A stretch of 10,447 bases of DNA from Nanobdellota archaeon (lineage in GTDB: Archaea; Nanoarchaeota; Nanoarchaeia; Woesearchaeales; GW2011-AR9): assembly GCA_002687775.1 (NCBI GenBank), contig NZBF01000004.1:1-10447 (forward strand), in the 5' to 3' direction. The translations under genes were made by a program, and so were the position numbers. The notes beneath the pieces are model-generated. The model was not told where the DNA came from, did not search any database, and saw only the letters and a list, made by a program, of their open reading frames with translations. Shown in pieces: positions 1-10,447 of the stretch (within the stretch, counting starts at the first letter, position 1; each line of letters opens with the position of its first letter).

Positions 1-37
1 GGCGACAAACCGAAATTGTATGTAAATGGGGTTTCAT
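1..37 (-). CDS. 5' fragment of unknown gene reading out of the window (left copy)
   Basis: On the minus strand an ATG at 37-35 opens a frame of 12 codons (MKPHLHTISVCR) that continues past the window edge. It is identical to the fragment at the right end because both lie in the inverted repeat. A TATA-like box (AGTATATA on the minus strand, 59-66) lies 22-29 nt upstream of the ATG, nearly the same leaderless geometry as several other genes here. A multicopy repeat with an outward gene is what a transposase gene of an insertion sequence would look like, but 12 residues are too few to assign a family. Confidence 0.35.
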   Translation of the reverse strand, partial: MKPHLHTISVCR

Positions 38-58
38 TTAAAAGTTTTAAAAATGACC

Positions 59-66
59 TATATACT
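59..66 (-). promoter_or_regulatory. TATA-like box of the outward-reading repeat gene (left copy)
   Basis: AGTATATA on the minus strand, 22-29 nt upstream of the ATG at 37. It mirrors 10382-10389 in the right copy. Confidence 0.4.
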
Positions 67-120
67 ACAGAAGTGTAAACAGATTTCCGAATTATTCAGA
101 AGTGATTTTTTACCAAAGCA

Positions 121-128
121 TTTATAAA
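121..128 (+). promoter_or_regulatory. Candidate TATA boxes for the DEAD-box helicase gene
   Basis: TTTATAAA at 121-128 matches the box used by other genes in this window. A second candidate, TTTATATTTAA, lies at 176-186. Using a TATA-to-start distance of about 27 nt, transcription would begin near 151 or near 208, giving a leader of roughly 120 or 60 nt. I cannot tell which is used. The rest of 100-270 shows no gene, tRNA or obvious strong hairpin. Confidence 0.4.
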
Positions 129-255
129 CTATGAGCACAACTAGTTCTTAAACAAAGCTGAGATACAAACTAAAGTTTATATTTAATTTGGCAGAAGCAG
201 ATAAGTATCATACTCATTCTGTTTCACTTGAAAACCTAACAGCTATACAATAATC

Positions 256-260
256 AGAGG
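256..260 (+). promoter_or_regulatory. Shine-Dalgarno-like motif before helicase
   Basis: AGAGG lies 10 nt upstream of the ATG at 271. With the distant TATA candidates it suggests a leadered mRNA, unlike most first genes in this window. Confidence 0.45.
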
Positions 261-270
261 ATTATATAAA

Positions 271-1560
271 ATGAAATTTAGTGAATTACAAGTAAGAGAA
301 GAAATAGTAAGTGCGTTACAGGATGAGCAAATTACTGAACCAACAAATATCCAGGAACAAACTATCCCGTTAGCATTAGCAGGGAAAGATATCGTTGGAA
401 GTTCCAGAACTGGAAGTGGTAAAACGTTATCATTCGGAGTACCATTAATACAACGAGTTGAATCTGGAAAAGGTGTACAAGGATTAGTTCTAGCACCAAC
501 AAGAGAATTAGCAAATCAAATTTCTAGAGAATTAAGAAAATGGAGTAAAAATATTAACTTAAACATTGCAACTGTTTTTGGTGGAGTGGCATTAGGTCCA
601 CAGGTTGACGCGATGCGAAGAAGTGAAATTATCGTAGCAACACCGGGAAGAATGTTAGATCACATGGGTAGAAATAATGTTGATTTAGGTTCTCTAAAAT
701 GTTTCGTTCTTGACGAAGCAGATAAAATGGTTGAAATGGGGTTCATTGAAGATATTGAACGAATCTTACAGGCAACTCCTGAAGATAGACAAATTCTATT
801 ATTTGGTGCAACCATCTCTGATGAAATTAATTACATCAAACAAAAACATATGAAAGATGTGCAAACTGCAAAAGCTGAGTTGCATGTGAAGAAAGATTTA
901 CTGGAACAACAATACTACAATGTAAAAATGTTTGAAAAGTTTTCATTACTTGTTCATTTACTGAAGAAGGAAGAAACTGGCAGAGTAATTATTTTCTGTT
1001 CTAAACGTTCGACTGTTGAATTGGTTAATAGAAATTTACGTGATCATTCTGTGAAATCAGAAATGATTCATGGGAAAATGCGGCAAAATAAACGGTTGAA
1101 TGTTATTGACAGATTCAATAATGGTAAGGTTGACATTTTAGTTGCATCTTCAGTTGCAGCACGTGGATTAGATATTAAGAATGTGACACACATTTTTAAT
1201 TATGACTTGTCAAAAGATCCGCAGGAATACATTCACCGTGTTGGACGAACGGCACGAGCTGGTGAATCTGGAACAGCTATCACATTACTTGCAGAGCAAG
1301 ATTATGAACCGTTCCATGCGATTCTTGGTCGTTATGGTATGGAAGTTGAAGAATTGCAAGTTGAAGCGTTTGAAAAGTTGCGATTTAACACACAGCAAGA
1401 AAGACGTGGATCTAGAAATGGTTTCCGTGGTCAAAGGAATGGACAACGAACTGGTGGATTCAGAGGTCAAGGAAGTGGTTCTCGGCCAAGTGGGCAGCGA
1501 AGCGATTTCAGACGTCCTAAGCGGCAAAGTATTCATGAGCGACAAACTGCTCATTTTTAA
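271..1560 (+). CDS. DEAD-box ATP-dependent RNA helicase
   Basis: 429-aa superfamily 2 RNA helicase, expected to unwind or remodel RNA with ATP in the cytoplasm (RNA decay, ribosome assembly or cold adaptation in this family). Visible motifs: Q motif (F3; T25 to Q28), motif I SRTGSGKT at 45-52, Ia APTREL at 75-80, GG at 104-105, TPGR at 124-127, motif II DEAD at 148-151, motif III GAT at 179-181, motif IV around VIIFC 239-243, motif V ARGLD at 297-301, motif VI HRVGRTAR at 322-329. After about residue 375 a basic Gly/Arg-rich tail replaces folded sequence, a common RNA-binding extension. Two departures from consensus: motif III is GAT rather than SAT, and the motif V region reads SSVAARGLD where TDVAARGLD is usual. 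The start at 271 is preceded by AGAGG. The gene is alone in its transcription unit, ending in a hairpin. The family is certain; the RhlE/CsdA-like subgroup is not resolved. Confidence 0.95.
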   Translation: MKFSELQVREEIVSALQDEQITEPTNIQEQTIPLALAGKDIVGSSRTGSGKTLSFGVPLIQRVESGKGVQGLVLAPTRELANQISRELRKWSKNINLNIATVFGGVALGPQVDAMRRSEIIVATPGRMLDHMGRNNVDLGSLKCFVLDEADKMVEMGFIEDIERILQATPEDRQILLFGATISDEINYIKQKHMKDVQTAKAELHVKKDLLEQQYYNVKMFEKFSLLVHLLKKEETGRVIIFCSKRSTVELVNRNLRDHSVKSEMIHGKMRQNKRLNVIDRFNNGKVDILVASSVAARGLDIKNVTHIFNYDLSKDPQEYIHRVGRTARAGESGTAITLLAEQDYEPFHAILGRYGMEVEELQVEAFEKLRFNTQQERRGSRNGFRGQRNGQRTGGFRGQGSGSRPSGQRSDFRRPKRQSIHERQTAHF

Positions 1561-1589
1561 TCCCTTAACGGGATTATTCTTTTTTCTTT
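1558..1589 (+). terminator. Hairpin plus T-tract terminator after helicase
   Basis: A 7-bp stem pairs 1558-1564 (TAATCCC) with 1570-1576 (GGGATTA) around the loop TTAAC. A T-rich run follows (1577-1589). The TAA stop codon of the helicase forms the base of the stem. It resembles an intrinsic terminator; archaeal termination often needs only the T-tract, so the hairpin may serve mainly in 3'-end stability. Confidence 0.65.
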
Positions 1590-1595
1590 CAATAA

Positions 1596-1604
1596 TTTTA
1601 TAAA
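1596..1604 (+). promoter_or_regulatory. TATA box for rfcL, leaderless spacing
   Basis: TTTTATAAA ends 23 nt before the ATG at 1627. This spacing places the transcription start at or next to the start codon. No Shine-Dalgarno motif is present, which fits a leaderless message. Confidence 0.75.
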
Positions 1605-1626
1605 CAATCAATTCTGTGAAATTTCT

Positions 1627-2814
1627 ATGTTTACACTCAAATACGCACCGAAACATTCTAACCACATAATTGGGCAAGATTCTGCAATGAGGGAATTGAA
1701 AGATTTTGTTCAGAATTATAAAAATAAGAAACATAAAGCGATTTTGTTACATGGAGCAATCGGAACAGGAAAGACAGCTTCTGTCTATGCATTAGCCGAA
1801 GAATTAGGGTATGATTTATTAGAACTAAATTCTGGTGATCAACGAAATGCGGATGGTATTACAAGATTTCTTTCATCTGCATTAGGTCAGCAATCATTAT
1901 TCATGACACCGAAAATGGTATTGATTGATGAAATTGATACTATTGGTGGTGTTCGAGATCGTGGGTGTATCCCTGCGCTACTCAAAGCTATTGCGAAATC
2001 TAAGTATCCTGTAATTTTAACAGCGAATGATCCGTTTGATCAGAAGTATAAAAATTTGAGAAAGAATGCATTAATGGTAGAATTTCCAAAATTACAATAT
2101 CAAGATCTTGCCATATTGTTAACAAGTATCTGTGAAAAGGAAAGCATCCAGTTTGAAGAAAAAGCAATAAATTCCTTAGCACGGCAAGCAGATGGTGATG
2201 TGAGAAGTGCGTTAATTGATTTACATTTATGTAAAGATAATATGACATTTGATGCTGTCAGTAATTTATCTGACAGAAAAAGAGTGGATTCAATCTTGCA
2301 AGCACTTGCAGTTATTTTCAAATCATCAAGTGTTGATAACGCATTACCAGCATTGAAAGATGTGAATGTTGAATTACGTGACGTGATGTTTTGGATTGAT
2401 CATAATTTACCTAAAGAATATGTTGATGCCACATCTTTAGCACGAGCATATGAACATTTAGCGCGAGCCGATATTTTTCAAAGGAGAATTATGAAAAGAC
2501 AACATTGGCGCTTTTTGGCTTACATTAACAATTTGTTGACAGCAGGTATTTCATCAGCCAAAGAAAAAAGAAACACGGAGTTTGTGAAATATATGCCAAC
2601 TATGCGATTTTTGTCAATGTGGCAGGCAAAGATGAGGAATGCAAAAAAGAATGATATTGCTTCGAGGTTAGCAGAAAAAACGCACACGTCAACAAAAGTT
2701 GCTAGGGAACAAATTCCTTACTTGCAGAAAATGTTTCAACATTCTATTAACAATGGTATTGTGAAAGAATTAGATTTATCCGATGATGAAGTTGCTTGGT
2801 TGAGCAAAACTTAA
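1627..2814 (+). CDS. rfcL: Replication factor C large subunit
   Basis: 395-aa AAA+ ATPase, the large subunit of the archaeal clamp loader that opens PCNA and loads it at primer-template junctions. Seen: N-terminal KYAPKH near residue 5 (RFC box II-like), Walker A GAIGTGKT at 43-50, Walker B MVLIDEID at 97-104, sensor 1 ILTAND at 130-135, sensor 2 GDVRSALIDL at 190-199, then a helical collar domain to the end. RfcL of Pyrococcus and relatives is longer and ends in a PCNA-interacting PIP box; here the protein stops at about 395 residues with a short acidic tail (DDEVAWLSKT) and no visible QxxLxxFF motif. No arginine-finger SRC motif is evident either, as expected for the large rather than the small subunit. 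The start is supported by the leaderless TATA spacing. The small subunit gene is not in this window. Confidence 0.93.
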   Translation: MFTLKYAPKHSNHIIGQDSAMRELKDFVQNYKNKKHKAILLHGAIGTGKTASVYALAEELGYDLLELNSGDQRNADGITRFLSSALGQQSLFMTPKMVLIDEIDTIGGVRDRGCIPALLKAIAKSKYPVILTANDPFDQKYKNLRKNALMVEFPKLQYQDLAILLTSICEKESIQFEEKAINSLARQADGDVRSALIDLHLCKDNMTFDAVSNLSDRKRVDSILQALAVIFKSSSVDNALPALKDVNVELRDVMFWIDHNLPKEYVDATSLARAYEHLARADIFQRRIMKRQHWRFLAYINNLLTAGISSAKEKRNTEFVKYMPTMRFLSMWQAKMRNAKKNDIASRLAEKTHTSTKVAREQIPYLQKMFQHSINNGIVKELDLSDDEVAWLSKT

Positions 2815-2818
2815 TAAA
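2811..2818 (+). promoter_or_regulatory. TATA box for glyS overlapping the rfcL stop codon
   Basis: TTAATAAA lies 24-31 nt upstream of the ATG at 2842 and contains the rfcL TAA. It matches the leaderless spacing of the other promoters here, so glyS probably has its own start even if it is also reached by readthrough from rfcL. Confidence 0.55.
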
Positions 2819-2841
2819 GATTTAACCTCATTCTTGATAAA

Positions 2842-4326
2842 ATGACCTCATTTGAAACAATAACAACGTTTTGTAAAAAGAAAGGATTCATGTATCCGTC
2901 TAGTGATATCTACGGCGGATTAGCAGGGATTTATGATTATGGTCATTTAGGAACGTTATTGAAACGAAATTTTGAAAATACTTGGAGAACATTTTTCTTG
3001 AATTTACATCATAATTACTACGAAATTGAAACAGCAAACGTGATGCATGAAAATGTTTTCCGCGCATCAGGTCATTTAGAAAACTTTATTGACCCTATTG
3101 CAAAATGTTCGAAATGTGGTAACATTGAACGCGCTGATCATTTGGTTGAAAAAGAATTGAAGAAGAGAGTTGAAGAATTGACACCCGGTGAATTAACTTC
3201 ATTGATTAAGAAACATAACATCACTTGTCATAAATGTCACAAAGCGTTCGAACCAGTTACAGTGTTAAACATGATGTTTCCGGTTATTATGGGTGTTGGG
3301 AAACAAACTCGTGCTTATTTACGACCAGAAACTGCTCAGGGCCCGTATGTGAACTTTAAAACACAATTTGAGTTGCAACGGAAGAAGTTACCTCTTGGAT
3401 TGGCTTTAATAGGAAGAGCATATCGGAATGAAATTTCTCCGAGACATTTTACGTTGCGGCAGAGAGAATTTACACAATCAGAATTGCAAATATTTTTTGA
3501 TCCTGATACTATTGATGAACATCCCGATTTTAATTCGATTAAAAATAAGAAATTGAATGTTGTTCTTGTTGGTGATAGGAGAGACGGTGTCAAAGAAGTT
3601 AAAGCAAGTGATTTAAACTTCCCAAAATTTTATGTGTATCATCTTGCAAAAATCCAAGAGTTTTATTTTGACGTTTTGAAAGTTGATAAAAAGAAGTTTA
3701 GATTATATCAGTTGAATGATAAGGAAAAAGCATTCTACAATAAGTATCATTTTGATGTTGAGGTTGATTTACATGAAGTAGGTTGGACAGAAGTTGGAGG
3801 ATTACATTATAGAACTAATCATGATTTAGAAGGACATGAAAAAGTTTCTGGAGAATCAATGCACGTTACTGTAAATGAAAAGAAATTTATCCCTCATGTG
3901 TTAGAATTAAGTTTTGGAGTTGATCGAAATACTTACATGCTGGTTGATCAAAATTATGAAGAAAGAGATCATGTTGTTTTAGGAATCCCTAGCAAACTTA
4001 CTCCATTCTTTTGCGCAGTGTTTCCATTAGTAAAAAACAAACATTCAATTGTCAAAAAAGCAAAACAAGTGTATGGTTCATTAATTGGTTATTCTTGCTT
4101 CTATGATGAAGTTGCTTCAGTTGGACGACGATATGCGAGAGCAGATGAAATTGGAATTAGATATTGTATAACAGTTGATTTTGATACGTTGGATGATAAT
4201 TCTGTGACTATAAGGGATAGAGAAAGTACGAAACAAATTAGAATAAAAATTGATACATTGTTAGACACACTTTTTGATTTAATGCAAGGCAAGAAATTTG
4301 AAGATAGTGGAAAGATTATTAAATAG
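2842..4326 (+). CDS. glyS: Glycyl-tRNA synthetase, homodimeric class II type
   Basis: 494-aa enzyme that charges tRNA-Gly with glycine, of the alpha2 archaeal/eukaryotic/Thermus type rather than the bacterial alpha2beta2 type. Seen: N-terminal GLAGIYDYGHLG (26-37), typical of the family; FRASGHLENFIDP (73-85); two CxxC pairs (C89/C92 and C129/C132), probably a zinc site; LRPETAQGPYVNF (160-172); motif 2 from RNEISPR (195-201) to REFTQ (208-212); substrate-pocket region HEVGWTEVGGLHYRT (311-325); motif 3 LSFGVDR (356-362); C-terminal anticodon-binding domain from about 385 to 475 (VFPLV, then YARADEIGIRYCITVD). It is shorter than many archaeal GlyRS, suggesting trimmed insertions. Motif 3 carries GVDR, as in Thermus-like enzymes, instead of the GxGR of eukaryotic enzymes. 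The tandem arrangement with rfcL is 27 nt apart. Confidence 0.96.
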   Translation: MTSFETITTFCKKKGFMYPSSDIYGGLAGIYDYGHLGTLLKRNFENTWRTFFLNLHHNYYEIETANVMHENVFRASGHLENFIDPIAKCSKCGNIERADHLVEKELKKRVEELTPGELTSLIKKHNITCHKCHKAFEPVTVLNMMFPVIMGVGKQTRAYLRPETAQGPYVNFKTQFELQRKKLPLGLALIGRAYRNEISPRHFTLRQREFTQSELQIFFDPDTIDEHPDFNSIKNKKLNVVLVGDRRDGVKEVKASDLNFPKFYVYHLAKIQEFYFDVLKVDKKKFRLYQLNDKEKAFYNKYHFDVEVDLHEVGWTEVGGLHYRTNHDLEGHEKVSGESMHVTVNEKKFIPHVLELSFGVDRNTYMLVDQNYEERDHVVLGIPSKLTPFFCAVFPLVKNKHSIVKKAKQVYGSLIGYSCFYDEVASVGRRYARADEIGIRYCITVDFDTLDDNSVTIRDRESTKQIRIKIDTLLDTLFDLMQGKKFEDSGKIIK

Positions 4327-4330
4327 AAAG

Positions 4331-4345
4331 TTCTTTATTTTGTTT
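4331..4345 (+). terminator. T-rich tract after glyS, possible terminator
   Basis: TTCTTTATTTTGTTT directly after the glyS stop codon, without a hairpin. Archaeal RNA polymerase often terminates at such tracts. It might instead be an AT-rich promoter element for the next gene, since it contains TTTATTTT. Confidence 0.35.
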
Positions 4346-4373
4346 GAGAGGCGATGGATGGTGATCAGTATGT

Positions 4374-5741
4374 GTGGTACAGTGTATTTCTGTTAGTTCA
4401 TTCAACACAATACATGGCAACAACATTTCTACAGATGGGTATATCTGGAATTTTGGCATCTTTCTCAGTGAGAATTCCACAAACAATACTATTTCGCAGA
4501 ATGTAATTACAACTTCTGGATCTCAAAGTGATGGAATAAGTATCAATTATACTGTTGGCACTGACCCTTCAAATAATGTAACAAATAATTCATTCGAGGA
4601 TGTAAGTGGTTATGACCTTGCCTTTCATAGTCCGGGGTTGAATGAAACTAAATTGGTGAATCAACCTATAAGCAATTATTCATTTAACAGTACAAAAATA
4701 TATTTCGAGAGGTCTACCCTTGGGATTGTTAAATTTCTTGATTTCATTAACGGTACAGGAACAAACTTGAGTAATGACATAAGGATAGAGAATAATTCTA
4801 TTGTTGTTGAATCGGGCAATAACTCTGGTTTGAATAAACCTGCTAATTTAACACTTTATGGTGTTCCCACTAATTACACCGATCCTGTTATTCTGAAAGA
4901 TTATGCAGAATGTGCAGCACCTGCTTGTTATAATTATACTTCACTCAATGCTGGAACTGTTTTGTTTAATGTCACTTCATTTTCAAATTATAGTATTGGT
5001 GAGAAACCACCAGCGGCTCCAGCTGAGGAATCCAGTTCATCATCTTCTTCTGGAGGCGGGGGAGGTGGAGGCGGGGGTTCAAGTAGTACAATCAGTGTCG
5101 AGAAGAAATTTACTTCTGCGAAACCCGGTGAATCAACTACTGTTTCGTTTACTAAAGATGCTGGTGTAATTGATATCACTTTTGATGTTAATACTGAGAT
5201 AAGTAGGATGACTGTTTCTGTGCAATCTGTGCCGGTGACAGATAAAGCAGTAGCTGCCGTTTCAACGCCAAGTGGAAATTCTTATAAATATTTGAAAATG
5301 ACTGCCGGTACTGATCAGAAAAATATCAATTCCGCGAAAATAAATTTCAAAGTTGCCACAACTTGGTTTACACAAAACAGATACGATCGTAAATCTGTCG
5401 TGCTGCAACGGCATGCTGACAAATGGAAGAGGTTACCTACAACTCAATTGCGTTCCGATTTAGATTTTGTGTACTATGAAGCAGAAACTCCTGGCTTTTC
5501 ATTGTTTGTGATTACAGCTGAAGAATTGCCTGAAGGTGTAACTGCGAGGGTGAATGAAGCAGGTGAGTTAGTTGAGCAAGTTGAAGTGATGGATGTTCCT
5601 GCTGCAGTTGAAGAAGTAATTGAGCAACCTGTTCAGGAAGTTGATAATTCGAAGTTGATTATTTTTTCAATGGTTGGATTATTGATAATCATAATACTGG
5701 TTTGGTTATTTAAGAAAAGATCTACAAGAAAGACCAGTTAA
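4374..5741 (+). CDS. Surface-anchored beta-helix/PGF-pre-PGF domain protein, probably 5'-truncated
   Basis: 455-aa cell-surface protein. Residues about 5-75 look like parallel beta-helix (NosD-like) repeats (NTIHGNNIS, NNTISQNVI, NNVTNNSF). A beta-rich region follows, then an Ala/Pro-rich, Ser7-Gly9 linker (212-238), and a domain at about 240-382 closing with ETPGFSLFVIT, which I recognise as the PGF-pre-PGF domain of archaeal surface proteins. An acidic stalk (383-426), a single transmembrane helix (428-446) and a basic KKRSTRK tail come last. Many N-X-S/T sequons suggest N-glycosylation. No signal peptide is present: the frame opens with a GTG at 4374, has TGA at 4362 just upstream, and starts mid-repeat. 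The N-terminal export region therefore seems lost by deletion or frameshift. Its stop overlaps the stop of the convergent AIM24 gene. Ligand or role unknown. Confidence 0.75.
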   Translation: MVQCISVSSFNTIHGNNISTDGYIWNFGIFLSENSTNNTISQNVITTSGSQSDGISINYTVGTDPSNNVTNNSFEDVSGYDLAFHSPGLNETKLVNQPISNYSFNSTKIYFERSTLGIVKFLDFINGTGTNLSNDIRIENNSIVVESGNNSGLNKPANLTLYGVPTNYTDPVILKDYAECAAPACYNYTSLNAGTVLFNVTSFSNYSIGEKPPAAPAEESSSSSSSGGGGGGGGGSSSTISVEKKFTSAKPGESTTVSFTKDAGVIDITFDVNTEISRMTVSVQSVPVTDKAVAAVSTPSGNSYKYLKMTAGTDQKNINSAKINFKVATTWFTQNRYDRKSVVLQRHADKWKRLPTTQLRSDLDFVYYEAETPGFSLFVITAEELPEGVTARVNEAGELVEQVEVMDVPAAVEEVIEQPVQEVDNSKLIIFSMVGLLIIIILVWLFKKRSTRKTS

Positions 5742-6427
5742 TTTCTGTTATTTCTTGGTTTAGGTAAATGAGGAATTATTTTCTTAACTAAATTTATTAA
5801 TGGCATACTTTGCAACCATACTTTTCCTGGACCTGTTAACGTTGCTAGAAACCATCCCTCTCCAGAGAATAAGATGTTTTTGAATCCTTTGGTTGTTGTC
5901 CAGTCCATGTTCACGGTTGATTCAAATAATGCAATATGTCCAGGATCAACTTTGATAGTTTCTCCGGCATGAAGATTTAATTCAGTAACTTCCCCATCAA
6001 TTTCCACAAAGGCTTTGCCACCACCTGATAATTTTTGGAATATGAAACCTTCGCCACCAACTAAACCAGCACCAAGTTTTTTTCTAAAATGCATCTCTAA
6101 TTGAACTGAATCTTCAGCACACATAAATGCATCCTTTTGACAAATGAAAGATTTTCCACCCATGTCAAGTTCAATGATTTTTCCTGGATACTCTGAAGCA
6201 AAGGTAACTTTGCCTTCTCCCTGCGATGTTGAATAGGTGGTTAAGAAAAAAGAATCACCAGAAAGCATTCTCCCTAAGCCTTTCATGACGCCACCACGCG
6301 TGGAGGTGGTCATTTCAATGTTTGAATCCATCCATGCCATGCCGCCAGATTCACAGAATACTTTTTCTCCAGGTTGCAAAGTTATGTCAAGTGTTTGCAT
6401 GATTGATCCATTGATTTTGTGTTGCAT
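5738..6427 (-). CDS. AIM24 / TIGR00266 family protein
   Basis: 229-aa protein of the AIM24 family (mitochondrial biogenesis AIM24-like, TIGR00266), a beta-rich fold found widely in bacteria and archaea whose biochemical role is not settled. Seen: FCESGGMAWMD near residues 24-34, GGVMKGLGRMLSGDSFFLTTY at about 45-65, a glycine-rich core (GAGLVGGEGFIFQKLSG), GETIKVDPGHIALFE, and the C-terminal LQSMPLINLVKKIIPHLP, all typical of this family. No signal peptide or membrane segment is seen. The length is usual. The ATG at 6427 is supported by a TTTTAAAA box 23-30 nt upstream (leaderless spacing). It lies 42 nt downstream of the lrp-like gene on the same strand and runs convergently into the surface protein gene, overlapping by 4 bp. 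Family assignment is confident; function is not known. Confidence 0.9.
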   Translation of the reverse strand: MQHKINGSIMQTLDITLQPGEKVFCESGGMAWMDSNIEMTTSTRGGVMKGLGRMLSGDSFFLTTYSTSQGEGKVTFASEYPGKIIELDMGGKSFICQKDAFMCAEDSVQLEMHFRKKLGAGLVGGEGFIFQKLSGGGKAFVEIDGEVTELNLHAGETIKVDPGHIALFESTVNMDWTTTKGFKNILFSGEGWFLATLTGPGKVWLQSMPLINLVKKIIPHLPKPRNNRN

Positions 6428-6449
6428 TTTTTCTTTGAGGATAGTTCTC

Positions 6450-6457
6450 TTTTAAAA
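6450..6457 (-). promoter_or_regulatory. TATA box for the AIM24-family gene, leaderless spacing
   Basis: TTTTAAAA is 23-30 nt upstream of the ATG at 6427, in the gap after the lrp-like gene. It implies separate initiation of the AIM24 gene. Confidence 0.65.
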
Positions 6458-6469
6458 TGTTATGTAATT

Positions 6470-6916
6470 TCACAACTTAACAAATTCTGTTTTCAACTGG
6501 TTAAATGAAACCAAAGATTTAATTTTTGCGATCCCTTTTCGTGAAATAACATGTTTGACAAAATTAAAATATTCATCTTGGTCTTTCGTTCGAATTTTTA
6601 ATATAATTTCCCAGTCACCGATTATGATGTCGACACTTTCAATTTCTGGATGTTTTGCTAATTCATGTCCTATGCGTTCTGGGTCACCATACTCGTCAGG
6701 TGATAAGCTAATTAATACGTACGTGCAGAATCCTTCTCCTATTTTTTTGTAATCAAAAACAGCTTTGTATGCTTTAATGGCATCTTTCTCTAATTTTTTT
6801 ATGTTGTAATGTATCGTTGTGGAAGGTTGCTTAATTTTCTTTGCAATTTTAGATATTTGCGGTGTGCAGTATCCTTCTTTGAAAAGTTCAATGAGTTTCT
6901 TGGTGATATCTTTCAT
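6470..6916 (-). CDS. Lrp/AsnC-family transcriptional regulator
   Basis: 148-aa DNA-binding regulator. The N-terminal winged helix-turn-helix (about 3-50) includes TPQISKIAKKIKQPSTTIHY and NIKKLEKDAI. The C-terminal RAM (ligand-sensing, oligomerising) domain (about 62-140) includes VDIIIGDWEIILKIRTKD, where the G-D-W-E-I-I-L strand is typical. I chose the ATG at 6916 although the frame is open to 7102, because a TTTATAAA box lies exactly 23-30 nt upstream and the extra 62 residues show no domain and would cover the divergent promoter and the racemase start. Members bind short palindromes as dimers or octamers and often control their own promoter and a neighbour. The divergent racemase gene and a palindrome at 6961-6977 suggest that here. 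The effector is probably an amino acid, by family; which one is unknown. Confidence 0.9.
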   Translation of the reverse strand: MKDITKKLIELFKEGYCTPQISKIAKKIKQPSTTIHYNIKKLEKDAIKAYKAVFDYKKIGEGFCTYVLISLSPDEYGDPERIGHELAKHPEIESVDIIIGDWEIILKIRTKDQDEYFNFVKHVISRKGIAKIKSLVSFNQLKTEFVKL

Positions 6917-6938
6917 ATTTTCGTAGAATATTCCATTT

Positions 6939-6946
6939 TTTATAAA
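6939..6946 (-). promoter_or_regulatory. TATA box for the lrp-like gene, leaderless spacing
   Basis: TTTATAAA, itself symmetric, lies 23-30 nt upstream of the ATG at 6916 on the minus strand. It fixes the start codon choice. Confidence 0.75.
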
Positions 6947-6960
6947 TTTGTTGTTGTTTT

Positions 6961-6977
6961 TTTGAATTTTGTTCAAA
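6961..6977. promoter_or_regulatory. Candidate Lrp operator between divergent genes
   Basis: TTTGAATTTTGTTCAAA: perfect 6-bp arms around a 5-bp AT-rich centre. Archaeal Lrp-type regulators (for example Ss-LrpB, Ptr2) bind 13-15 bp palindromes of just this design. It sits upstream of both promoters, about 15 bp from the lrp TATA box and 7 bp from the racemase TATA-like box, so binding could affect either. No footprint evidence; inference from symmetry and position. Confidence 0.55.
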
Positions 6978-6983
6978 TATGTT

Positions 6984-6991
6984 CTTATACG
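6984..6991 (+). promoter_or_regulatory. TATA-like box for the racemase gene
   Basis: CTTATACG is 32-39 nt upstream of the ATG at 7023, implying a short leader of about 10 nt. It is a weaker match than the other boxes, which would suit a promoter that needs an activator. Confidence 0.4.
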
Positions 6992-7022
6992 TGGCTTTGG
7001 GAATGTATGAGATGAGAAGACT

Positions 7023-7715
7023 ATGAGACTTGGAATAATTGGAGGACTTGGACCGGCGACAAGCTGTGCGTTTTGCCTGAATGTAAACAATCGGGTGCGC
7101 AAATTAACAGATTGTCAGCCAGACATTGTGTTAGAGAATCTGCCAATCTCCACCTCGGCTGAGCGAAATATTATTCATGGAAACCTTGGCTTTGAACATT
7201 GTCGATTGTTAATGCAAGCTGTTGAGCGATTAAACCGCAACGAAGTTGATTTCATAGTTATTCCATGCAATACTGTTCATGTCTTTATTAATGAACTCCG
7301 TGAAAATTCTCATGTGCCAATTCTAAGTATCATTGAGGAATGTGCAAAAGAATGTCAACTTCGTGGTTTCAGAAAAGTTGGGTTGTTAGGTTCAACCAAA
7401 ACGGTCAATGAAAAATTACATGACACAGAATTGGAAAAGTGTGGAATACAATTAATTACTCTCAATGAAAAAAATCAAGAAAAAGTAAGTGAAATTTTGA
7501 TAAAGATCATTCATAATAAGGCAACTGAAGCTGATGAAGCATTTCTTATAGGTGTTATTGACGTTCTGCGGACGAATGGAGCAGAAGCAGTAATCCTGGG
7601 ATGCACTGAATTGGGATCATTCATTAGAAAATCTTCTCTTCCGTTATTGGATACGTTATCGATTTTTGAAGATGAAACAGTAAATTTGTTAACAAATAAA
7701 AAGAAAACTATATAA
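7023..7715 (+). CDS. Aspartate/glutamate racemase family protein
   Basis: 230-aa PLP-independent racemase, predicted to interconvert L- and D-aspartate (or a related acidic amino acid) in the cytoplasm. Seen: N-terminal MRLGIIGGLGPATS (substrate-binding loop), first catalytic cysteine in IPCNTVH (C82), GLLGSTKTV (120-128), second catalytic cysteine in LGCTEL (C194). Both cysteines are present, so the two-base mechanism should be intact. The length matches the family. ATG at 7023 is the natural start; the two ATGs just upstream (7006 and 7011) are quickly stopped in other frames. It is divergent from an Lrp/AsnC regulator with a palindrome in the shared 106-bp gap, suggesting amino-acid-responsive control. 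Which substrate it uses cannot be told from sequence; other members act on glutamate, hydantoins or maleate. Confidence 0.9.
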   Translation: MRLGIIGGLGPATSCAFCLNVNNRVRKLTDCQPDIVLENLPISTSAERNIIHGNLGFEHCRLLMQAVERLNRNEVDFIVIPCNTVHVFINELRENSHVPILSIIEECAKECQLRGFRKVGLLGSTKTVNEKLHDTELEKCGIQLITLNEKNQEKVSEILIKIIHNKATEADEAFLIGVIDVLRTNGAEAVILGCTELGSFIRKSSLPLLDTLSIFEDETVNLLTNKKKTI

Positions 7716-7717
7716 AC
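7709..7717 (+). promoter_or_regulatory. TATA box for the ssb-pop5-psmA-SBDS operon
   Basis: CTATATAAA overlaps the end of the racemase gene. A 27-nt spacing puts the transcription start near 7740, about 19 nt before the ATG at 7759, leaving room for the GGAGG ribosome site. Confidence 0.65.
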
Positions 7718-7745
7718 CATTTCTTGTCTCGATGTGTAAAGCAAC

Positions 7746-7750
7746 GGAGG
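7746..7750 (+). promoter_or_regulatory. Shine-Dalgarno site that fixes the ssb start
   Basis: GGAGG, 8 nt before the ATG at 7759. It argues for that start over the in-frame ATG at 7732, which has neither a ribosome site nor a correctly spaced TATA box. Confidence 0.75.
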
Positions 7751-7758
7751 GTACAACC

Positions 7759-8181
7759 ATGTTAATCAAAGATATACAAGCAAACCAAGGAAACATTGAT
7801 TTAGTTCTTACCATTACGAATAAAGATAGTGTTCGTGAATTCGAAAAATTCGGTAGAAGTGGGCAAGTATGCAACTTGACTGGAAAAGATGAATCTGGAG
7901 ATGTTAAAATTACGTTATGGAATGATGACGTGAACAAAGTCAGTTTAGGAGATAAAATTCATATCACAAACGGCTGGTGTTCAGAGTTTAGAGGAGAAAG
8001 ACAAGTAAGTACTGGGAAATTTGGCCAATTAGAAGTTCTTGAAGCTAATGCGCCGTCGGAAAGTAGTACACCGGAAACTAACGAAGATATTTTACCAGAA
8101 CCGCCTGCTGAACCAGAATTACAGCCAGCCAATGAACTTAAGGAAGATGAACCTATTTCCAATGAGGAATCTGTGTTATGA
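7759..8181 (+). CDS. Single OB-fold ssDNA-binding protein (SOSS-B/RPA-like)
   Basis: 140-aa protein. Residues about 1-92 form an OB fold of the SOSS-B1/RPA type, from LIKDIQANQGNIDLVLTI through GRSGQVCNLTGKDESGDVKITLWNDD and VSLGDKIHITNGWCSEFRGE to TGKFGQLEVL. These align well by eye with human SOSS-B1 (hSSB1) and archaeal single-OB SSBs. W56 and W69 or nearby aromatics may stack on ssDNA bases. Residues about 93-140 are an acidic, Pro/Glu-rich disordered tail (PEPPAEPELQ, then NEESVL) like the partner-binding tails of SSBs. Probable role: coating ssDNA in replication and repair. First gene of an operon; its stop overlaps the Pop5 start (ATGA), so translation is probably coupled. It could also bind RNA, given its RNA-processing neighbours. 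Confidence 0.85.
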   Translation: MLIKDIQANQGNIDLVLTITNKDSVREFEKFGRSGQVCNLTGKDESGDVKITLWNDDVNKVSLGDKIHITNGWCSEFRGERQVSTGKFGQLEVLEANAPSESSTPETNEDILPEPPAEPELQPANELKEDEPISNEESVL

Positions 8182-8510
8182 AGTTATTGTCGTCCTTAAA
8201 AGAAAAGAAACGCTACGTTGTTTTTGAAATTAAGGCCGATAAAAATTTAACATTATCTGACGTTGAAAAAGTTGTTGACAGTGCAGTTAATGAATTCCTT
8301 GGTCAGCTTGGAAAATCAAAAGCTGGTGTGATGTTTATACGCGAGAAATGGAATGCTAAAACGCAACGTTTTTTAATGAAAGTTAACAATAAATATGTGG
8401 ATGAATTAAAATCTGCCATGCTGTTTATCAAAAGAATTAAAAACAAACCCGTTATAGTTGAGTCAGTATTGGTAACCAGTACGATTAAAAAAGCTCATGA
8501 TGCGATATAA
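8178..8510 (+). CDS. rnp2: Ribonuclease P protein component 2 (Pop5/Rpp14 family)
   Basis: 110-aa subunit of archaeal RNase P, the ribonucleoprotein that removes the 5' leader of pre-tRNA. Pop5 pairs with Rpp30 and supports the catalytic domain of the RNA. Seen: LKEKKRYVVFEI near residues 7-18, LGKSKAGVMFIREKWN at about 44-59, QRFLMKVNNKYVDELKSAM at about 63-81, and VLVTSTIKKAHDA near the C terminus, matching the alpha-beta sandwich of the family. The length is normal for archaea. The start overlaps the ssb stop in ATGA. Rpp30, often next to Pop5 in archaea, is not in this window, nor is the RNase P RNA. Confidence 0.92.
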   Translation: MKLLSSLKEKKRYVVFEIKADKNLTLSDVEKVVDSAVNEFLGQLGKSKAGVMFIREKWNAKTQRFLMKVNNKYVDELKSAMLFIKRIKNKPVIVESVLVTSTIKKAHDAI

Positions 8511-8516
8511 GAGGTG
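8511..8516 (+). promoter_or_regulatory. Shine-Dalgarno site for psmA
   Basis: GAGGTG directly after the Pop5 stop codon, 6 nt before the ATG at 8523. It shows psmA is translated as an internal operon gene. Confidence 0.65.
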
Positions 8517-8522
8517 TAACAA

Positions 8523-9233
8523 ATGAAATTAGATCAAAAGATGGGGTACGATAGAAGTATCACAATGTTTTCTCCCGACGGGAGATTATTACAGGTAGAA
8601 TATGCTAAGAAAACTGTTCGGCAAGGATCAACTGCCGTAGGAATTGTGTGCAAAGATGGTGTTGTTCTTGTTGCAGACAAGAGAATTAACGGAAAATTAA
8701 TTATTCCTGAATCTGTAGAAAAAATGTTTAAGATTGATGATCATATTGGGGCAACTGCCTCAGGAATCATTTCTGACGCTCGAGTTCTTGTAGATAGAAG
8801 TCAATTAAAGGCTCAGCAACATTCAGTAACGTATGATTCGGCCATTGACGTGTTGACAGTTGTGAAAGAAATTTGCGATTTAAAGCAAATGACCACGCAA
8901 TCTGCAGGATTACGACCGTTTGGTGTTGCATTATTAATAGCTGGTGTTGAAGAAGATCATTCTATTAAATTGTACATGACTGATCCAACAGGAATTTATT
9001 TCCAATACCGAGCAGCTGTCATTGGTGAAGGTGAACCTGAAATTGAAAAAATATTACAATCTAAGTGGAAAGCTTCCCTATCTATGGATGATGGGTTAAG
9101 CCTTGCCATAAAAGCAATGAAACAAGTTCTTGGTAAAGAATTTAGTATTGATCGTATTGACGCATCTTACGTGTCATCAAAAGATCGTAGATACAGAAAG
9201 TTTAAATCTGAGAAGATTAGAGAACGTGCATAA
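8523..9233 (+). CDS. psmA: Proteasome alpha subunit
   Basis: 236-aa outer-ring subunit of the archaeal 20S proteasome. Seven alphas form the gated ring that admits unfolded substrates and docks the ATPase regulator. The alpha signature YDRSITMFSPDGRLLQVEYA occupies 9-28, with the YDR gate motif at 9-11. VEKMFKIDD (65-73) holds the lysine (K67) equivalent to the one contacting the HbYX tail of PAN in Thermoplasma. SGIISDARVLVDRSQ (80-94) and GLRPFGVALLIAG (129-141) are also family-typical. There is no N-terminal Thr nucleophile, as expected for an alpha rather than a beta subunit. The C terminus is basic (DRRYRKFKSEKIRERA). The neighbours Pop5 and SBDS match the conserved archaeal exosome/proteasome superoperon. 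It overlaps the SBDS start by 1 bp (TAATG). Beta subunit and PAN genes are not present here. Confidence 0.96.
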   Translation: MKLDQKMGYDRSITMFSPDGRLLQVEYAKKTVRQGSTAVGIVCKDGVVLVADKRINGKLIIPESVEKMFKIDDHIGATASGIISDARVLVDRSQLKAQQHSVTYDSAIDVLTVVKEICDLKQMTTQSAGLRPFGVALLIAGVEEDHSIKLYMTDPTGIYFQYRAAVIGEGEPEIEKILQSKWKASLSMDDGLSLAIKAMKQVLGKEFSIDRIDASYVSSKDRRYRKFKSEKIRERA

Positions 9234-9937
9234 TGGAAAGAATTAGTAAGGAAAAAATCAAATTGAACTTAGCTCGTTTGAAGCGAGCTGGGCATACATT
9301 TGAAATAGATATTAATCCTGAAAATGCCACTGCGTATGTTAATGGTGAGATGTCAAACATTCATGAAGTGTTGAATGCTGAGCGAGTTTTTTCTGACGCT
9401 AAGAAAGGTGAGTTGGTTTCAAATACTTTATTGCAGGAGGTGTTTGAAACTTCGGATCCTTTGAAAGTAGCTGATATTATATTACGTCAGGGAGAAATTC
9501 AATCGACTTCTGAGCAAAGAAATGCTGAAAGGGAGCAGAAAAGAAAGAGGGTAGTTGAATTAATTCGTCGAAATGCAGTAGACCCCTCTACAAATATTCC
9601 GCATCCTGCTGAGAGAATTGAACGGGCAATGGAAGAAGCACGTGTTTCAGTTGATGATGCTATTTCTGCTGAAGATCAAATTCAAACAGTTGTGGATAAA
9701 TTACGAATAGTATTGCCTATCAGATTGGAGGAACGTTCGTTGAACATTACTATTCCTTCTCAGTACGCAGCGAAGTTGTACGGTCTTGTTGGTAAGTATG
9801 GTAAATTACAGAAAGAGAATTGGAATTCTGATGGTTCGTGGACAACAAACATTTTGATACCAGCTGGATTGCAGGAAGAATTAATGGACAAGTTAAATTC
9901 TGAGACACATGGCGGCGTACAGATTGAAGTTAATTAG
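9233..9937 (+). CDS. sbds: Ribosome maturation protein SBDS (Shwachman-Bodian-Diamond family)
   Basis: 234-aa protein of the SBDS family, the same size as the archaeal homologue from Archaeoglobus. In eukaryotes SBDS with the GTPase EFL1 releases eIF6 from the 60S subunit; archaea probably do the same with EF-2 and aIF6. Three domains are visible: N-terminal FYSH domain (about 1-88, with TAYVNGEMSNIHEVLNAERVFSDAKKGE), a central three-helix domain (about 89-160, including QRNAEREQKRKRVVELIRRNAVDP and NIPHPAERIERAMEEARV), and a C-terminal ferredoxin-like domain (about 162-234, LPIRLEERSLNITIP to HGGVQIEVN). The start codon overlaps the psmA stop, indicating coupled translation. In many archaea Rrp4-Rrp41-Rrp42 follow directly; here they do not. 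Confidence 0.95.
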   Translation: MERISKEKIKLNLARLKRAGHTFEIDINPENATAYVNGEMSNIHEVLNAERVFSDAKKGELVSNTLLQEVFETSDPLKVADIILRQGEIQSTSEQRNAEREQKRKRVVELIRRNAVDPSTNIPHPAERIERAMEEARVSVDDAISAEDQIQTVVDKLRIVLPIRLEERSLNITIPSQYAAKLYGLVGKYGKLQKENWNSDGSWTTNILIPAGLQEELMDKLNSETHGGVQIEVN

Positions 9938-9961
9938 TTAAGAAGTTTTCTTGGCACAACA

Positions 9962-9969
9962 TTTAAATA
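9962..9969 (+). promoter_or_regulatory. TATA box for the small membrane protein gene, leaderless spacing
   Basis: TTTAAATA lies 23-30 nt upstream of the ATG at 9992, within an AT-rich stretch (9960-9975). It indicates that this gene is not part of the SBDS operon. Confidence 0.65.
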
Positions 9970-9991
9970 AATAATAGAGTACTTAACCTTC

Positions 9992-10276
9992 ATGTCAGAA
10001 AATGTTGATAAAAAACCAGGGTACATAGATTCGATTCTTCCTTACATAACTGGGCCTCTTGCAATGCTTGTACCTCCTGCATTTATTTTTATTGGAGTGG
10101 TGGCGGCATCACCGCCTGAAATTCATGCTTCAGCACCTTCTATGCTTGAACTGAAGGTTGAAAACGTAATTGGCGGACAAACGCTCGATAAGTTTTATCA
10201 GAGGGGAACAGAAAGACTTTATATGGAGATAGATGGAAAACCAGCTATAGATTATTTTAGAGCTCTCGAAAATTGA
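9992..10276 (+). CDS. Small single-pass membrane protein of unknown function
   Basis: 94-aa protein I do not recognise. Residues 1-12 are polar (MSENVDKKPGYI). One hydrophobic segment at about 15-39 (LPYITGPLAM, then LVPPAFIFIGVVAAS) is a likely transmembrane helix or uncleaved signal anchor, with a double proline inside it. The remaining 55 residues are soluble-like and mixed in charge (LELKVENVIGGQTLDKFYQRG, IDGKPAIDYFRALEN). A basic KK before the helix and the positive-inside rule would put the short N terminus in the cytoplasm and the tail outside. A well-placed TATA box and clean start support it as a real gene. It sits between SBDS and the right inverted repeat, where exosome genes would be expected. 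Confidence 0.7.
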   Translation: MSENVDKKPGYIDSILPYITGPLAMLVPPAFIFIGVVAASPPEIHASAPSMLELKVENVIGGQTLDKFYQRGTERLYMEIDGKPAIDYFRALEN

Positions 10277-10381
10277 ATTTAATCATATTACACATTCTTT
10301 AGTATCTTATGTTTTGCAAATAATACAAGACTTATTTCTCAATAAAAACTGAATAATTCGGAAATCTGTTTACACTTCTGT

Positions 10382-10389
10382 AGTATATA
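10382..10389 (+). promoter_or_regulatory. TATA-like box of the outward-reading repeat gene (right copy)
   Basis: AGTATATA lies 22-29 nt upstream of the ATG at 10411. A second AT-rich patch (TTTTTAAAA, 10395-10403) lies closer to the ATG, too close for a TATA box. Confidence 0.4.
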
Positions 10390-10410
10390 GGTCATTTTTA
10401 AAACTTTTAA

Positions 10411-10447
10411 ATGAAACCCCATTTACATACAATTTCGGTTTGTCGCC
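10411..10447 (+). CDS. 5' fragment of unknown gene reading out of the window (right copy)
   Basis: ATG at 10411 opens MKPHLHTISVCR and is cut by the window end. It is identical to the fragment at 37-1 on the other strand. Placement next to a TATA-like box at near-leaderless spacing makes a real start plausible. It may be the start of a transposase or another multicopy gene; no family motif is visible in 12 residues. Confidence 0.35.
   Translation, partial: MKPHLHTISVCR

Follow-up and report, generated by a model that had tools for sequence, protein, structure and literature searches.

The window, that is the whole stretch of 10,447 nucleotides analysed here (contig NZBF01000004.1 of the Nanobdellota archaeon assembly GCA_002687775.1), is very probably an entire chromosomal contig bounded by two oppositely oriented copies of one and the same IS481-like insertion sequence (IS), with their right ends turned toward the segment and each cut by the assembler at a depth of 99 bases. 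Bases 1-99 are the exact reverse complement of bases 10349-10447, and from base 100 inward the two ends agree at scattered bases only. As the runner-up inverted repeat within the window is only 29 nucleotides long at 72% identity, we regard the 99 bp repeat as real; an exact match of 99 bases cannot arise by chance in 10.4 kb.

The repeat was identified through the genomes of relatives, searched in overlapping sets of 22, 49 and 352. Against the 22 genomes the 99-mer gave many weak matches (E <= 1), among them two inverted ones about 940 bases apart in genome G004, where a local re-search with the 99-mer added a 71-base match at 82%. In G004 the terminal repeat matches 26 bases at 96%, and 24 bases in inverted orientation at the opposite end of the element. 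Within the family of G004 the 99-mer matched 5 of 49 genomes (E <= 1e-4), and order-wide we found matching IS right ends in at least 13 of 352 genomes (E <= 1e-6), a lower bound since at most two candidates were scored per genome. Five of the 13 matching relatives have at least two right-end matches each. The best order-wide match (G045:C35) is 81% identical over window positions 4-99 (96 bases; E 8.9e-21).

The G004 locus, L050, is a complete relative of the window's IS with an exact 15 bp target duplication. Its transposase is best matched by the NCBIfam model transpos_IS481 (E 7.2e-45, 153.7 bits against a cut-off of 224), followed by IS3 (E 4e-25), while among the Pfam models rve_3 scores above its cut-off and rve below. 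The transposase gene ends at 1490 and the IS at 1665, so that the stop precedes the end of the IS by 175 bases, and we therefore read the 98 IS bases at each end of the window as non-coding. Homology to the elements of relatives identifies the repeat as non-coding sequence from the right (3') end of an IS481-like IS, about 1.1 kb long, found in Woesearchaeota-like archaea. The window's element is a new but ordinary IS481-like IS. That the 99 bp might be coding (25 residues in frame 1, followed by a stop) was considered and dropped; the homologous stretch of L050 follows the transposase stop, and this frame is interrupted by a stop in the nearest relative. Searches with the frame-1 peptide found no match in plasmids and phages (tblastn), nor did a degenerate pattern of it in viral contigs.

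Prokaryotic members of the IS481 family have TG...CA termini, and so do the seven related elements that we read for ends and flanks, all with terminal inverted repeats: they start with TGT and end with TACA or TTCA, with matching inverted ends, and the window shows the TTCA end only. One of the seven (G037) runs into a contig end and has no right flank; four of the remaining six (G004, G023, G049:C78 and G042) are flanked by an exact target duplication of 15 bp, which lies within the 2 to 15 bp range of the IS481 family. These elements place the IS boundary at window base 98, so the IS part of the 99 bp repeat is 98 bases. Base 99, a G, is the first target-site base of each insertion and is G in both window copies by coincidence; with the two window flanks counted, the first target base is G in 12 of 24 right-end flanks. 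The inner target sites of the two window copies differ from each other, and partner copies of both predicted 15 bp sites would be expected outside the window. One full-size copy, L071 (G049:C83), has no target duplication, for which recombination between IS copies is a possible cause. Another locus, L051:1400-1529 (G010), holds a decayed IS in which the right end has turned into 4.1 exact copies of a 32 bp tandem repeat.

In the accessible text of PMC10045372, target duplications of the IS481 family are given as 2 to 15 bp, mostly 6 bp, with 15 bp for the archaeal members ISMac4 and ISA0963-1, and the related IS481EU elements have TGT...ACA termini. The relatives of the window's IS thus share with the family their terminal inverted repeats, a transposase best matched by the IS481 model and 15 bp target duplications. 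They differ from typical members in the low score of the L050 transposase, and are likened to ISMac4 and ISA0963-1 by the description in that part of the source only. As the score lies below the cut-off, the element may be a divergent IS481 member or a neighbour of the family. A further difference is that a subgroup of the relatives needs an apparent -1 slip at A8G, as discussed below.

The position at which the contig stops agrees with what is known of assembly at repeats. According to the available part of the COBRA paper (PMC10914622), contigs broken at repeats share an end of maxK bases in metaSPAdes and MEGAHIT, or of maxK-1 in IDBA_UD, and 99 bp is the shared length for the simulated settings of that study. 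The identical end sequence of the window would fit such a length, at maxK 99 or with IDBA_UD at maxK 100. It differs from the ends described there in that one contig carries the same end twice, which needs two facing copies; if the contig is assembled correctly, the same IS end at both window ends means that two copies face each other with their right ends inward. The same IS end is cut in a similar manner in three relatives, where pairs of contigs share exactly 140 (G045), 138 (G205) and 136 (G165) bases of it, the G045 pair diverging thereafter. By their coordinates and the lengths of the contigs, 8 of the 18 right-end matches found in relatives have a contig end 96-140 bp away on their IS side. 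The preliminary description of the window had noted an exact 99 bp inverted repeat with a sharp inner limit and taken it for repeat copies in opposite orientation around the segment; both points hold, the former by the exact complement that ends at base 99 and the latter by the IS right end at either side. Its proposal of a de Bruijn assembler run at k=99 stands as regards an overlap of k-mer length into a longer mobile repeat, given the IS identity and the COBRA rules, but k=99 is not the sole fit.

We thus suggest that two IS481-like insertion events, in opposite orientation, would have left copies flanking a chromosomal core segment of about 10.25 kb, and that a de Bruijn assembler would then have been halted by the repeated element, ending the contig on either side after 99 bases of the shared sequence. 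Direct evidence covers the exact repeat, its identity as an IS end, the IS boundary and the chromosomal gene order; from it we infer that both IS copies run on past the window start and the window end, and that they lie outside it in the inverted arrangement.

Several points weigh against this reading. The L050 transposase falls short of the IS481 model cut-off, and two of the six related elements with both flanks (G049:C83 and G010) show no target duplication. An identical copy was absent from the 99-mer searches of the 22, 49 and 352 genomes and of plasmids (blastn), and pieces of the 99-mer used as exact patterns had no match in viral contigs. The cut depths in relatives vary (96, 116 and 136-140) and point to no single k. 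Finally, the analysis covered the window, and the remainder of each IS copy would lie beyond it, so that truncated or non-autonomous derivatives could stand there.

This last point is the substance of an alternative to which we give a small chance, namely that the repeat is a short non-autonomous IS derivative (a miniature inverted-repeat transposable element, MITE, or a solo end); it overlaps with the preferred explanation, as the repeat would still be an IS end. Shortened elements do occur among the relatives (401 bp between the ends with an N gap in G023, 518 bp in G010 and 856 bp in G042), and in G047 the right end is present and a left end was not recognised. Against this stand four full-size copies of 1107-1110 bp within the same group.

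Fold-back artefacts of assembly or library preparation, chimeric or hairpin, can in general yield contigs with inverted ends, and one end of the window might have been copied in reverse onto the other. We consider this very improbable, since the limit of the repeat coincides with an IS boundary set independently in other genomes, and the inner flanks of the two repeats are unlike each other.

The segment between the IS ends argues against the remaining alternatives. The order RfcL-GlyRS-RPA-Pop5-PsmA on one strand is found again at 11 of the 49 loci of relatives, and contig ends interrupt many of the remaining ones; this conserved order points to a chromosomal core segment. That two inverted IS copies form a composite transposon carrying the 10 kb segment as a unit would agree with the inverted right ends on both sides, but the core gene order is common to relatives and we see no sign of the segment having moved, which makes such a unit hardly credible. 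A linear replicon with terminal inverted repeats would account for inverted ends at both extremities, and is exceedingly improbable given the housekeeping gene order and the occurrence of the same IS end inside contigs of relatives. The preliminary description had listed RFC, GlyRS, proteasome and SBDS genes, all borne out by the gene assignments, and had thought an independent linear plasmid unlikely, with which we agree on the two grounds just given; the fold-back artefact and linear termini that it offered as alternatives are very unlikely, as the limit of the repeat is that of the IS in other genomes.

For the two facing IS481-like copies that we favour, homologous recombination between them could invert the segment, and such an inversion of the core is possible on the present sequence. 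Inversions of more than 10 kb between inverted repeats have been reported in Pseudomonas aeruginosa and Escherichia coli (PMC5372343, as far as its accessible part goes), and an inversion here would thus be unsurprising. The likeness lies in a segment of about 10 kb between inverted repeats; unlike those cases from P. aeruginosa and E. coli, one orientation is known here, from assembled sequence. The 15 bp flanks outside the two IS copies would tell the histories apart. If they read GAAGTGATTTTTTAC on the left and TTTCTCAATAAAAAC on the right (+ strand), the insertions were independent and the segment has never inverted since; if they read GTTTTTATTGAGAAA on the left and GTAAAAAATCACTTC on the right, swapped and reverse-complemented, the segment has inverted.

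Features of the window, with positions, strand and the basis of each assignment
Feature	Position	Strand	Basis
Last 98 bases, right end (3' of transposase) of IS481-like IS, left-hand copy	1..98	+	Similarity to ends in 13 genomes; boundary set by elements with exact 15 bp target duplications
Conserved CCTATATACT following A-rich tract, TATA-like, outward toward gene at 271	57..66	+	At least 90% conservation of the TATAT and CT columns across 17 right ends
Terminal inverted repeat, left-hand copy, ending ...AATTATTCA	70..98	+	G004 end matches; conserved among 17 aligned right ends
Predicted 15 bp target site, left-hand insertion, GAAGTGATTTTTTAC	99..113	+	15 bp target duplications in 4 of 6 related elements
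DEAD-box helicase	271..1560	+	Pfam DEAD 1.7e-47
Replication factor C large subunit	1627..2814	+	NF003229 6.4e-103
Glycyl-tRNA synthetase	2842..4326	+	Pfam tRNA-synt_2b and HGTP_anticodon; 49 related loci
PGF-pre-PGF domain protein	4374..5741	+	TIGR04213 1e-28
AIM24-family protein	5738..6427	-	Pfam
Lrp/AsnC-family regulator	6470..6916	-	Profile matches (scanned as 6470-6919, one codon ahead of ATG)
Asp/Glu racemase family protein	7023..7715	+	Pfam, NCBIfam
RPA-like single-stranded DNA-binding protein	7732..8181	+	Best NCBIfam models single-stranded DNA-binding/RPA, below their cut-offs
RNase P Pop5/Rpp14-family subunit	8178..8510	+	Pfam
Proteasome alpha subunit	8523..9233	+	Pfam
SBDS	9233..9937	+	Pfam
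Open reading frame of 94 amino acids between SBDS and IS end, without Pfam or NCBIfam match	9992..10276	+	
Predicted 15 bp target site, right-hand insertion, GTTTTTATTGAGAAA read outward from IS	10335..10349	-	15 bp duplications of related elements
Same IS right end, right-hand copy, opposite orientation	10350..10447	-	Exact reverse complement of 1-98
Terminal inverted repeat, right-hand copy	10350..10378	-	Mirror of 70-98

The synthetase we take to be glycine-specific, a name given by readers of the sequence and not by a database match. Its relatives (49 loci) are at most 67% identical, and 20 of the 49 carry a Woesearchaeota label, which is also borne by 9 of the 14 loci with an identity of 64% or more; a Woesearchaeota-like host is suggested by this. 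The proteasome subunit is at most 71% identical to its relatives among the matches listed, and the searches with these two proteins thus turned up no close relative of the host. No tRNA was found in the window by ARAGORN and no Rfam family at gathering thresholds. Genes for the PGF-pre-PGF protein, the AIM24 protein, the Lrp-like regulator and the racemase (4374-7715) separate GlyRS from the RPA-like gene, and the two lie closer together than in the window in 13 of the 17 relative loci that match both.

When the 49 genomes were searched, 27 gave an SBDS match; in 21 of these the fetched flank downstream of SBDS contains rrp4, and in the other six it was not found there, so the junction is variable. 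The window IS begins 412 bases past the SBDS stop, and the plain reading of the right edge is a putative IS insertion between SBDS and rrp4. We considered the break in synteny as proof of a rearrangement and rejected it, since a simple insertion at this place accounts for the right edge. In the stretches fetched for the 49 relative loci, many of which end at contig ends, no counterpart of the DEAD-box gene was found, and this does not date any event at the left edge. In another Woesearchaeota genome (L014:14806-15504) a DDE_Tnp_1 transposase directly follows SBDS, where rrp4 would be expected.

To describe the right end we aligned the window with 16 copies from 14 genomes (n=17), leaving aside the second contigs of pairs (G045:C36, G205:C10, G165:C107 and G049:C82) and the ends of G200, G037, G010 and G042:C48. 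Roughly the last 62 columns are the well-conserved part, in which an A-rich tract is followed by a TATATA block and then by the terminal repeat. The mirror of the TATA-like block at 10382-10391 also points outward, there antisense to the open reading frame of 94 amino acids. The block could be a putative outward promoter, perhaps active at a circle junction.

The transposase start could be read in 12 closely related copies. In six of them an ATG and a short leader precede A8G, and the transposase lies in the -1 frame; the other six are in frame. This count excludes six copies that are more distant, at 36-39% identity. A pattern that fixes A8G and the following sequence, and not the start, found 16 places in 12 of the 352 genomes, and the reversed pattern used as control found none. 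The 16 places are not independent, as copies repeat within a genome (for example four in G049 and two in G045); together with the previous count they make up two overlapping lists of loci (L071, L077, L080, L091, L134, L051 and L144-L159). All 16 have an ATG five codons before GAAAAAAAAG in frame 0 and a KWI-type reading in the -1 frame. No ATG was seen in the -1 frame back to the nearest stop, or, for L145 and L154, within the 25 codons printed. The -1 frame is open for 45 residues in eight places; of the rest, six run into a contig end, while further stops occur in L147 and L150.

The site looks like one at which an archaeal IS uses either transcriptional slippage or programmed -1 frameshifting. 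The accessible text of a review of archaeal recoding (PMC8211752) covers a Sulfolobus fucosidase and some archaeal viruses, and its sole mention of a transposase there concerns pyrrolysine. A literature search by title and abstract opening found, among the papers listed, no report of such a slip for archaeal IS481 elements, which does not prove its absence. We speculate, with considerable doubt, that the window's IS belongs to a group with a slippage-controlled transposase, and that its outward TATA-like motif might drive transcription across a circle junction or of genes nearby; the inverted pair could then flip the segment and bring the helicase gene at 271 under the influence of this motif.

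As a rule of thumb, perfect inverted contig ends of about k bases in short-read archaeal assemblies can mark facing IS copies, and the genomes of relatives can supply the identity of the element at such ends. For this uncultivated archaeon a testable prediction of rearrangement is gained, and a group of archaeal ISs that share what looks like a conserved frameshift site is brought to light.

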